This document shows, one piece after another, positions 7,801-16,800 of a stretch of DNA of 64,000 nucleotides. A program made the position numbers and the translations under genes. The notes under the pieces were generated by a model. The model saw only the letters and a program-made list of their open reading frames with translations, did no database searches and was not told where the DNA came from. Each line of letters begins with the position of its first letter. Position 1 is the stretch's first letter. Origin of the DNA: Branchiostoma floridae (lineage: Eukaryota; Chordata; Leptocardii; Amphioxiformes; Branchiostomatidae); contig NC_049983.1 in NCBI RefSeq assembly GCF_000003815.2, forward strand, positions 6,572,120 through 6,636,119, written 5' to 3'.

Positions 7801-10800
7801 CTGTACTAACCTGTAGAACTGGTAGCTACTGTTGACGTTGCTGAGGTCTGGGGTTCTACATTACTGGGTTAACCCTGTACTAACCTGTAGAACTGGTAGC
7901 TACTGTTGACGTTGCTGAGGTCTGTGGTTGGGACGGTGCTGACGTGTCCATCGCTTCCTCCTGTGTCTGGTCTGCCTGTGTCGTGGTGGATGGCGTGGGG
8001 TCATCGCCCTCTCCCTCGTCATCCGTACCGCAGCCATGGATGGTTCCGCAGGGCCCCACCTTAGGCTTCTCATCATCTTCATCATCCGTACCACAACCTA
8101 TATGGGTTTGGGAAAAAATGAAAACAATTTCAAACTGGTCTGGAGTTGGACATTCTTTTTTTGGTCCAAAGAAGAAGTAAAAAACTTTTACTGCTTTATT
8201 GTACTATCTTTACCTTTCTTGACAAATACGATGAAAAGTGGATCACAGCTTAACCCTTGTCCTGCTGGCTATTATTTACTATTACATCCTCCCTGTGCTG
8301 AGCATTTTTTACCCTATTGAAAGAATGGGCACTTCTTTTACTTTGCCCTTTTAAAGTTACTTTTCTCCCACGTAACCCTAGAAAGTTATACATCATTAGA
8401 AAGCTAAAAGTCTCTACTATTTGAAAATGTCAAACAATTGTTACCCAAAGTCATCAATAATGAGAAACAAGGGCAATAAGGCAATAAAACAAATTATTTT
8501 GACAAACTTCTTGTATTATAGTATTTGACACATATTAAAATGATAGTATGAACACTACAACATTGCTTACGTATTCTGACAACATCAGAGCTACATGTGG
8601 AGGAAAAAAAATCACCCAGGTATCACTGAAGGTGAGTTTATGGCCTTTGATTGTCCCGGCACTGAACTGAAATTTCTGCAGAAAAGGGTGTTCTATTCGA
8701 CATCCGTATACATCTTTCTGTAGCTTTATAACAAACACTACACTACTTTCCTATACATCAACTGAAAGCTTACAACTTGTACTGTCTTTCTAGTTTTGTA
8801 ACATAATAATAACATATAAATATGAAGGTAATTAAGGTATAAAAGGCAATAAAAACAACAATTTCTAGTATTGTTTCACACAACTGTCACTAGCACCACC
8901 ACAACTGCCTCAATGTAGACTACAAAGCTCCTGACTAGTGCTGGCAATGTCAGATTATACACGTGAAGACAAAAATGCATGCAGGTACCATAACAGGTAA
9001 GTTTATGGCTGTGGACTGCCCTTGGTGCTGAACTGGCTAGTCAGCAAAATCCACAAACTTATGCAAGAGAATACACTTCATTTTGTGACCATACAATAAA
9101 GGAAATACCAACTTATTGTATATGACTGGATAGCTTATGGTCCGTACTCTCATGTTACATCAATATAGAGTTGTTATCATCTATACTAAAGGTAATAAAG
9201 GCATAAAAAGCAATAAAAACAAATTTCTTCACACTCTATACACAAAGCACTCACTAGCACCACCAGAGATGTCTCAATATAGACTACAAAGCTCCTGACT
9301 AGTGTTGACAATGTAAGGAAAAACATGTGAAGAGGAAAATGCATGCAGGTATCATAAAAGGTAAGTTAATGACTGTGGAATGTCCTTAGTGCTGAACTGG
9401 CTAGTCAGCAAAATCCACACACTTGTACAAAAGAATATACTTCATTTTGTGATCATACAATAAAGGAAATACCAACTTTCTGTAGATGAATAGAAAGCTT
9501 GAACTTTGTACTTTCATGTTACATCAATATAGAGTTGTTATCATCGATACTTAAGGCAATAAAGGCATCAAAAGCAATAAAAACAAATTTCTTCACACTC
9601 TATACAAAGAACACTCACTAGCACCACCAGAGATGCCTCAATGTAGACTACAAAGCTCCTGACTAGTGTTGACAATGTAAGGAAAAACATGTGAAGAGGA
9701 AAATGCATGCAGGTATCATAAAAGGTAAGTTAATGACTGTGGAATGTCCTTAGTGCTGAACTGGCTAGTCAGCAAAATCCACACACTTGTACAAAAGAAT
9801 ATACTTCATTTTGTGATCATACAATAAAGGAAATACCAACTTTCTGTACATGAATAGAAAGCTTAGACTTTGTACTTTCATGTTACATCAATATAGAGTA
9901 GTTATCATCCATATGAAAGGCAATAAAGGCATCAAAAGCAATAAAAACAATTTTCCTCATACTCTATCCATATAACACTGACTAGCATCACCAGAGATGT
10001 CTCAATATAGACTGCCAAGCATCTGACAATGTCAGATAATGCATGTGAAGCGGAAAATGCATACAACTTGTATTACAAGTATCATAACAGGTAAGTTTGT
10101 GGCTGTGGACTACCCTTGGTCCTGAACTGAACAATCATGATAAGGACTAGGCCTACCCAACTAGTCAGCAAAATTCACACTCTAATACAAGAGAATCGGT
10201 TCATCTTGTGATCATACAATAAAGGAAATGCCAACTTTCTGTATATGACTAGAAAGCTTATACTCTGTACTGTCATGTTACATAAATATACAGTAATTAC
10301 CGTCCATACTAAAGGTAATAAAGACATAAAAGCAATAAGAAGGATATTCTGCCACAATCTTTCCCAGTTCCTAAACAAAGTTCTGGGAACAAAAATACAA
10401 ATACAATACAAAGTTATGTGCGGCCTAATCTTCAGCAAGTGTCATTGTTAGTGTTGTTTCCTTCCTGTCTTCGCTTATAGGCCCCAACATAGTCGTCCAT
10501 TGTGTGGTAAAGTTCCATACACGGCTCAATGCACAAGGTTTGCCTGCACTGTTTACACTGGAAACTGGAACGCCTCTTAGAAGTTGCATCTGATGGTGCT
10601 GCAGGACCGCAGACTACGCACACTCTTGTTGGTGGTCTGCCTCCTGGGTTGTTTGGTGGGATGCGCTCCAAGAAGTGCCGCCCTGTGAGGCGAGTCAAGG
10701 TGTGGGCAGTGGCGCTGGCCCTCCTGCCCGTCGCCTCATTGACATAGCCGGATGTACTGATCATCTGCTTCACCACCAGGTTACGGAACTTGCGGTGCAA

Positions 10801-13800: not shown

Positions 13801-16800
13801 ATTAAATACAAGAAAAAACTTTACCATGTATAGTGCCACATGGACCAATTGTGGGTTTTGATTTCTCGTCATCTTCATCGTCGGTTCCACAGCCTGGAAA
13901 CAGAACAAAGTAAAAATTTTCCACTATTTGTATTTTCTTACTTGTGGCACATTACATTTCTAAACATTGAAGTCATAAATCAAACTTTGTGTATCAAATT
14001 AAAGTCAGAACTAACTGAAGATATTCATCCAGTTTGCATCCAGTATCCAGACAGCCATGCAAACAAGACAAGGAAAGACCAAAGGTAAAGCTGACCATGG
14101 ATGGTTCCACATGGGCCGATCTTGGGCTTCTCTGCATCCTCATCTTCGTCATCAGTACCACAGCCTATGGGAGGAAACATCAACAATGCCTTTGTCATTC
14201 TGTAATGGTTCAATCATCTTTTGTAACATCTACACCACTGTCTTTTTCAACGCAACATCACACTGTCTTTTTCATCACAAAGCAACAAACTTGCTTCACG
14301 ATTATCCCATTTTCAAAGTCCTAGCATGCCTGGGTCTGGACACAGCAGAAATAGGATCGAATCTTTCTTCTGGTGATGTACGTAAAGCGAATGTCCAGGT
14401 GTATGAGGGGGATTTAGGTAAGAGCCTCATGCGCCAAAGTTGTAAAAGAGCCCAACACACTTATTGACAAGGGGAAGGATGACCCGGTGCGCCTGGCCAA
14501 AAACATGAGCTGAGCAAAGCCACACTTCACCAGTAATTACTTGACAAAGCATCATGCTTCACCTAAGTGTTCAATCTCATCTAAAGACTGCTTCCTAAAT
14601 ATGGCAAACTAGACAATACTGGTTATTCTCTAGATAAGGGTAGATATACATTATGCATTGACTCACCATGAATAGTGCCGCAGGGTCCAACTTGCGGCTG
14701 CTCCGCAGAGCTGGCCGGTGGCTGTCCCTGCTCGCTGGTGGAGGCAGCTACTGAGGTCACAGTGGAGGTGGCAGGGGTGATGGCCTGGAGGAGAAATTAG
14801 TAAAAATGTTGTTAGAAAAAAAATCACATAGCACTATATTTTGTAATTTCATGTCTTGAGTGTCTTTGCCTGTAGCAAAAGTAAACAGGGAAGAATACGT
14901 CTTGTTGGATATGTATGGGAAATATACTGTAAATGCAGAAATGTTCGCGGTGGATTAATGTTCACGGTTTTTGCAGCGGCCGCTTCACCGGGAATTAAAA
15001 ACCACCGCAAACATTTTTCCATAACAGTAAGAGACTACAGTGCATGGTGCTACCGCGAAATTAAAACCACCGCGAAAAGTTGTTGTCCATACCTGTGTGT
15101 TCTGTATGATCTGTTTCATCTGTGTCGTTGCTGTGGGTGTGGACAAACTCTGTAGCGTGATTCCCGTCGGCGTGATGCTTGTGGCCGCCGACAGCGCCGA
15201 TGCCGCCTGCGCCGTAGTCATGGTGACGGGCACGTTTGAGGCGGACGGCAGGTTGGCGACGGAAACGGTGATGGGCCTCGATGTACCAGTGGCTCCCGCG
15301 CTGGTTGAGGAGAGGATTGTGGATGCAGGAACTGAGGTACCTGTGGTCAGAATGGAAAACAGAATTTAGACAAGTCCATTGGCCCGATTGCCTGGGCAAG
15401 TGGAAGTGTCGATTGGACAAGCGCATGTCCTACCGTACTTACCCAACCAATCTTTTCAAGGGTGTAATTTTTCCACATGAAAATTTGGGTAGATATTGGT
15501 CTACTTGTTTGAATAACTGTAGCTCCCAACAACTTGCCCAAATGATCAGCCCTAGAAGCTTATTAGCAATATCAAGCTTTTTTGAGTACATGACTTGTTT
15601 GAGTATATGACATCCACACAAAGTATAAATGTAGCAACACTTTAGTTTTGTAGTTAAACATTGTTGCACCTACATGCTTTAAAGTGTCTTTTAACAGAAA
15701 AATAAAAGAATTTTCTTGCTTCAAATAAAAATACAAAGAAATATAATATTAATTTGAATAATGTACAACAAGCAAAGCTTTGAGAAATTTCCCTTCCTAA
15801 CTTATAGAGAGCATTAAACAGCAGAATACTGTTTTATGTTTTGTCCTATGGTTACACCTTCCTGTGGTATAAGGCAAGTCTGGCGAGTGACAACAGCTGT
15901 AATTCAAACTCACGACAGTCTGGTGACGATACACAATACCAGCACATGTAACGTACCTGCTGGAGTGACAATGGTGATGGTTCCCGTTTTCCCTTGCAAG
16001 GCGGCGCTCGGTCTTGTGACGGGCGTGACCACGATCCTCTGCACCTGTCCCGTGGGCGTGGTGGTCGTCGTGATGCTGGACGCGGGAACGGTGATGATCC
16101 GTACGCCCGGCTGCATCTGTGACGTCACGGTCCGTACCACCGTGCCCATGGGGGTGACCCCCAGGGTGGTGGTGACGGTCCGGACGACTTGCTGGGTGCT
16201 GCCCTGGCTGGTGGGGTTCTTCACCATGTATGTGGATGGAAGCTTGCTGGTGGTCCCTGTGGTCATACCTATACAACACAAACATGGACATCTCAAAAAT
16301 GTCTTCTATTCAATGACAGCTTAAAGTACATGTATAACAATACATTAACAATGTTCTGCTGTTTTTGTTGTGCTGTATTCAGAACGAACTCAGAAAATCT
16401 TTGTAAGTGTTCTTTCTAACGAACAAATTTTGTACATACTTCTTTAATGTACTATGAAATTTATTGACTTCATGGCTTTTGCAGCACTTTACATGTATAA
16501 CATATTTTTCTACAAAATCTTTTGTGTACACTTATTTCCTTCAGAGAACCAGTCATTTGACCTTTCATCTTTATTTTCTTGCAATGGAAAAATCAGACAG
16601 ACTTCAGCCAAACGAGTGCTAGTGATAACCTCTAGATAAGGACCATCTGACCACTGTGATAACTTTTTAATGGTCTCTTGGATAACCTTTTCTAATGGTG
16701 AGCATAAAGAATCCTGTCTATAGTGGCCAACTGACCATTTTCAGACACCTACCTGCCACCCCAGGGTCATACCAAAGACTCTTAGAAAATGGTATATACA

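Follow-up and report, generated by a model that had tools for sequence, protein, structure and literature searches.

The HCF locus of the lancelet Branchiostoma floridae raises the question of what a tandem repeat does in the linker of a central transcription co-regulator, and whether it is related to the repeats at which vertebrate HCF-1 is cleaved. We analysed a window of 64,000 nucleotides (nt) of this genome (contig C5, 6572120-6636119; assembly of 513,431,437 bases in 431 contigs), in which a sequence-only reading had recognised an HCF-1 gene with small repeated exons. The spliced exons 17-22 of this gene give six exact copies of one 14-residue core, and the core residues are under strong purifying selection. 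The array is an old six-motif stretch in the HCF linker that, judging from its sequence, may well be a disordered array for multivalent docking.

An HCF gene with six exact copies of a 14-residue core

On the minus strand, the gene extends from about 60385 to about 2937 and further. Its exons 1-4 match the HCF Kelch domain (Pfam Kelch_HCF PF13854, expect value (E)=2e-130), while exons 25-27 match HCF C-terminal chain 1 in the PDB (4go6, E=1.1e-93), which corresponds to the Fn3 self-association module; Pfam fn3 was also found in exons 3' of the array (E=3.4e-11). The gene with the array is HCF, as it had been named from the sequence. A survey in the HCF-2 paper reports a single HCF-like protein in lancelet, and in the text consulted this paper uses only the Kelch domain of lancelet HCF (PMC6582346). 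The exons that form the array and lead on to the C-terminal half are the following:

14784-14667, minus strand: HCF exon 17, with AG/GT sites and an open frame, ending in GPCGTIH and the first base of the split Gly codon
14164-14096, minus strand: HCF exon 18, 69 nt, phase 1-1, 22 residues
13893-13825, minus strand: HCF exon 19, 69 nt, phase 1-1, 22 residues
13650-13570, minus strand: HCF exon 20, 81 nt, phase 1-1, 26 residues
13397-13317, minus strand: HCF exon 21, 81 nt, phase 1-1, 26 residues
8097-7885, minus strand: HCF exon 22, 213 nt, phase 1-1, which finishes copy 5 and contains copy 6 followed by a Ser/Thr-rich tail
7250-7143, minus strand: HCF exon 23, 108 nt, phase 1-1
6304-6539, minus strand: HCF exon 24, which encodes AVDGAAAV
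3526-5784 (span including introns), minus strand: HCF exons 25-27, the Fn3c module downstream of the array, matching 4go6 and fn3

AG acceptors and GT donors were present at all of exons 17-22. Exons 18-21 and the start of exon 22 encode the repeat, as had been read. The five junctions from 17/18 to 21/22 each split the same Gly codon after its first base (phase 1), as the sequence-only reading had claimed; the end of exon 22 is likewise in phase 1, with Ala as the codon split there. Since exons 18-21 begin with CGT and end with GPCGTIH, a whole core arises only after splicing, except for copy 6, which lies wholly within exon 22 and has no intron. The unit reads GPCG / TIHG / CGTDDEDD, and the six copies expected on joining the exons proved to be exact, with start-to-start spacings of 23, 23, 27, 27 and 21 residues.

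The array stands after the Kelch exons and before the Fn3 exons. Its 141 residues include 39 Asp/Glu, 12 Lys, no Arg, 12 Cys and 6 His. The spacers after the core are short and acidic or rich in Lys-Pro, and they differ in length and sequence among units, whereas the core is invariant. The earlier description of an acidic repeat fits this tail, which is indeed acidic; it does not fit the part that is kept, a 14-residue core of Cys, His, Gly and Asp. Growth, loss or skipping of units without frameshift had also been proposed, and skipping of any of exons 18-23 left the frame open through exon 27 in 64 of 64 combinations; the array gave no sign of recent activity, its synonymous sites being nearly saturated. 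Small in-frame exons placed head to tail also make up the tandem repeat arrays that arise by exon duplication and have symmetric 1-1 phases. The HCF array is built in the same way, but its junctions fall inside the motif (IHG/CGT) and its unit has no known folded domain.

The core is old and under strong purifying selection

Across the six copies of the 42-nt core at least 20 nucleotide changes are needed, and all of them are synonymous. A random change in the core is synonymous with a probability of 0.23 (0.25 with transition weight), and the chance of 20 synonymous changes out of 20 is 2e-13 to 1e-12. Summed over the 15 pairs of cores, we counted 123 synonymous and 0 nonsynonymous differences, and the proportion of synonymous differences per synonymous site (pS) was 0.85, near saturation. 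Exons 18 and 19 share 72% DNA identity, and exons 20 and 21 share 77%. When the introns of the array were compared (for intron 21, two stretches outside a transposon described below), only matches of 10-25 nt were found, at E 0.026 or worse, with no significant similarity.

The array is old, because its synonymous sites are near saturation and its introns lack significant similarity. On the same two grounds we rejected a recent tandem expansion, and the 123 synonymous against 0 nonsynonymous differences argue against it as well as against gene conversion. Neither process explains the identity of the core protein. The 14 core residues are thus under strong purifying selection. This age and this constraint are new here, and with them the earlier observation of the array, which was correct, becomes stronger than it had been stated.

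The array in its own genome and in wider searches

An 86-residue query from the array was searched against the lancelet genome, with only the best candidates scored, and gave at least 20 matches. Five of them had E below 1e-4 and were exons 18-22 of the array itself, exon 17 appeared at E 0.45, and the remaining 14, outside the gene, ranged from E 0.29 to 9.6. The two of these 14 that were inspected (L006 and L007) were minisatellite-like DNA whose translations contain CGTVH-type strings. Among the matches listed from these best candidates, no second array was found in the 513-Mb assembly.

A short pattern was matched by 36 stretches of the viral collection and 361 of the prokaryote one, and none was confirmed as a relative. 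The viral contigs contained no exact match to degenerate patterns of the array core or of the core of the vertebrate repeat; we take this collection to consist mostly of phage, and its null result says little on animal viruses. No description of the array appeared among the literature matches listed, in agreement with the statement of the sequence-only reading that none was known, although absence from print is not established by this; three exact motif strings had no occurrence in a full-text literature search.

Comparison with the vertebrate HCF-1PRO repeats

In the vertebrate HCF-1PRO repeat, a 3-residue linker (THE) joins the cleavage part (PPCE) to a Thr-rich part, which binds the TPR domain of OGT (PMC6240873). 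Its cleavage is inhibited by substitutions of E10 and also by P8A and C9A (PMC4549301). The repeats are 20-26 residues long, number six in human and occur in PRO-like form in both HCF proteins of chimaera, which places their acquisition before the HCF-1/HCF-2 duplication (PMC6582346). They generally lie inside one large exon (PMC4840301).

A parallel between these repeats and the lancelet array had been drawn from their place in the protein, and this part stood, as both lie between the kelch-side and Fn3c-side halves. In both, the units are of similar length and occur several times, and both have a P-C-x-T followed by an H and then by G-T; the Pro-Cys ahead of the place of the cleavage residue is present in 6 of 6 lancelet copies. 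In contrast, Glu at position 10, the cleavage site, is Gly in all six copies, and the Thr-rich anchor for the OGT TPR domain (TGTTNTATTAT) is replaced in all six by CGTDDE and a mostly acidic tail. The linker is one residue longer in the array, which is spread over six exons (17-22) with phase-1 junctions and not contained in one large exon.

The resemblance in sequence did not exceed chance. The best alignment of a unit with the PRO repeat set PCET-HETGT against a 10-residue stretch of the unit, with 6 identities in 9 aligned residues. Its Smith-Waterman score of 24 (gap 11/1) was matched by 10% of 20,000 shuffles when the PRO repeat was shuffled and by 14% when the unit was shuffled; looser gap costs gave shuffle p values of 0.02-0.06, and we consider the standard-gap value the fair measure. 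The same score was reached by 64 of 2133 27-mers from open reading frames (ORFs) of the window (best 34) and by 16 of 142 stretches from elsewhere in HCF (best 33). When 177,635 PDB sequences, PRO chains included, were searched with a profile built from the six units, nothing was returned up to E=10, and a 65-residue array query likewise found nothing in the PDB set. The pattern PC.T.{3,6}GT occurs in all six units and in the PRO repeat, is absent from the remaining ORF 27-mers of the window and is rare in shuffles (522 and 167 of 200,000); it was devised after both sequences had been seen. By these comparisons the sequence relationship between the array and the PRO repeats is not significant, and what is left (position, unit length, copy number and a short common core) serves as a lead and does not count as a passed test.

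Comparison with Taspase1 sites

Drosophila HCF is cleaved by Taspase1 (PMC3234250), and in mammals the processing of TFIIA takes place at a QVDG site (PMC4513858). An improved Taspase1 consensus reads Q3[ILV]2D1 before the cut and G1'V2'D3'D4' after it, and replacing the critical residues prevents cleavage (PMC3102056). The array copies resemble the Taspase1 sites of MLL, TFIIA and Drosophila HCF in having G-x-D-D followed by an acidic run, with GTDD supplying G1', D3' and D4' in 6 of 6 copies. They differ on the other side of the cut, where P1 is Cys and not Asp, P2 is Gly and not hydrophobic, and P3 is His and not Gln, again in 6 of 6 copies, and on these three positions we rejected the array as a set of Taspase1 sites. 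We likewise rejected its identity as an OGT-cleavable PRO repeat. As these two systems are currently known, the array is not expected to act in either of them, because the cleavage Glu and the Thr-rich anchor are missing for OGT and the P1 Asp is missing for Taspase1.

An OGT gene and a TASP1-like gene are both present in this genome. The OGT query gave 7 matches, all at C7:4909808-4914506, which fit one gene, and an asparaginase-2 gene (L014) is TASP1-like, with a motif that we take to be the TASP1 active-site signature. The TFIIA locus of B. floridae (L012, C1:14418500-14424500), which served as a control, has a standard Taspase1-type site with a long acidic run, IIQVDGANDTSDEDDDDDDDD. The unspliced minus strand of HCF below 61 kb contained no [FILMV]DG.[DEGS], with gaps of N (for example 17431-17808) that could hide an exon. 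The scan across exon junctions covered spliced exons 16-27, in which the AVDGAAAV of exon 24 is the only Asp-Gly; it is perhaps a degenerate, worn-out Taspase1-like site.

Transposon and other features of the locus

Introns 17-20 and 22 measure 502, 202, 174, 172 and 634 nt, and intron 21 measures 5219 nt. The latter contains the following element:

8250-13181, minus strand (HCF orientation): piggyBac-type DNA transposon in intron 21, with TTAA borders and a PF13843 transposase

The TTAA stands at 8250 and at 13178-13181, the two ends agree at 15 of 16 bases (TTAA included), and the open frame of 525 residues matches PF13843 (DDE_Tnp_1_7) at E=7.1e-80. The element contributes 4.9 kb of the array span and is not part of the array. 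Intron 21 without it is 291 nt long, and therefore the array was compact before the insertion. A 364-bp tandem repeat lies inside the transposon (8825-10027).

At 7722-7921, a 43-bp stretch occurs in three near-identical copies, 83 and 74 bp apart, and carries the 3' end and donor of exon 22. Only the first of these repeated donors fits the exon model, because the frame of exon 22 hits a stop just past it. An alternative exon 23 at 7799-7728 was rejected, as it has no AG acceptor. Elsewhere in the gene, an HCF intron holds a large GT-rich minisatellite (18573-20012), whose unit length is about 104-117 bp, with longer multiples also present. Scans of the window for tRNA genes and Rfam families found none, ARAGORN having been run on its bacterial setting.

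A candidate docking array and its alternatives

We propose that the core would be a short linear motif within a disordered linker, that the six cores would dock one conserved partner multivalently and that the acidic tails may add charge to this docking. The exon modularity would then let copy number change by splicing or duplication without frameshift. A Pfam search with the array gave no family at E 0.01, and an AlphaFold model of exon 22 alone, which holds a complete core plus the latter half of a second one, had a predicted local distance difference test score (pLDDT) of 58 and a predicted template modelling score (pTM) of 0.13, with no secondary structure reported. Several points weigh against the proposal. 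This structure is a single-sequence prediction of one exon, which says little and is weak evidence for disorder; a function cannot be read from constraint among copies within a single gene of a single genome; and two Cys and one His per core suit metal or redox chemistry equally well. Of the functions considered, a docking role is the most likely, at about even odds.

The residues just named suggest another reading, in which the Cys and His of the core bind metal or form a redox switch, as six C-x3-H-x-C clusters beside acidic residues. They are invariant in every core despite the near-saturated synonymous sites and account for all 12 Cys and 6 His of the array; however, no Pfam domain matched, and Cys and His are not singled out in the core, since its Gly, Thr, Pro, Ile and acidic residues show the same invariance. 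We regard this reading as quite unlikely. That the array is a neutral or merely charged spacer holding HCF-N and HCF-C apart is very improbable: it would agree with an acidic stretch of no confident fold between two functional halves, but charge alone needs no invariant Cys, His and Gly, the core has zero amino-acid changes across at least 20 substitutions, and a very recent expansion as the cause of this invariance is contradicted by the near-saturation of synonymous sites. An altered Taspase1 processing array, in which HG-C followed by GTDD looks like the prime side of a site for this enzyme, would use the three consensus positions present in all six copies, in a genome that has both the TFIIA-locus site and the TASP1-like gene. 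With Cys, Gly and His at P1, P2 and P3 where the consensus has Asp at P1, and with cleavage prevented when critical residues are replaced (PMC3102056), it is very unlikely.

A different kind of alternative concerns origin. The array and the vertebrate HCF-1PRO repeats could go back to a single HCF repeat in a chordate ancestor. Vertebrates would have added to it the Glu for cleavage and the Thr-rich anchor for OGT, and the lancelet would have kept an acidic tail and another function. The array would then be an invertebrate-chordate relative of HCF-1PRO, and a cellular tandem repeat in HCF would have predated vertebrates, OGT cleavage being added later by those two acquisitions. The corresponding place in the protein, the unit length (21-27 residues here, 20-26 in vertebrates) and the copy number (six here, six in human; PMC6582346) speak for it, as do the 6 identities in the best alignment and the pattern PC.T.{3,6}GT with its restriction to the units and the PRO repeat. 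Against it, the pattern was picked with both sequences in view, a score of 24 is reached by shuffles, ORF 27-mers and HCF stretches alike, the PDB profile and the 65-residue query gave nothing, and the vertebrate repeats generally lie in one large exon (PMC4840301). A common origin is therefore, in our estimate, a possible but rather unlikely explanation. Units intermediate between the array core and PPCETHETGTTNT, or a shared exon phase in other HCF genes, would back it.

Implications

Kapuria et al. 2016 (PMC4840301) proposed that the PRO repeats came from an ancient virus and stated that other genomes contain no degenerate form of them. Should the common origin hold, a cellular HCF repeat that existed before vertebrates would contradict both. 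The lancelet array in either case gives a concrete comparison, between a cellular forerunner of the PRO repeats and a linker that gained unrelated repeat arrays twice. Independently of origin, the lack of any change in 14 residues across all six copies, at near-saturation of the synonymous sites, points to a strong activity in binding or processing within this central transcription co-regulator.

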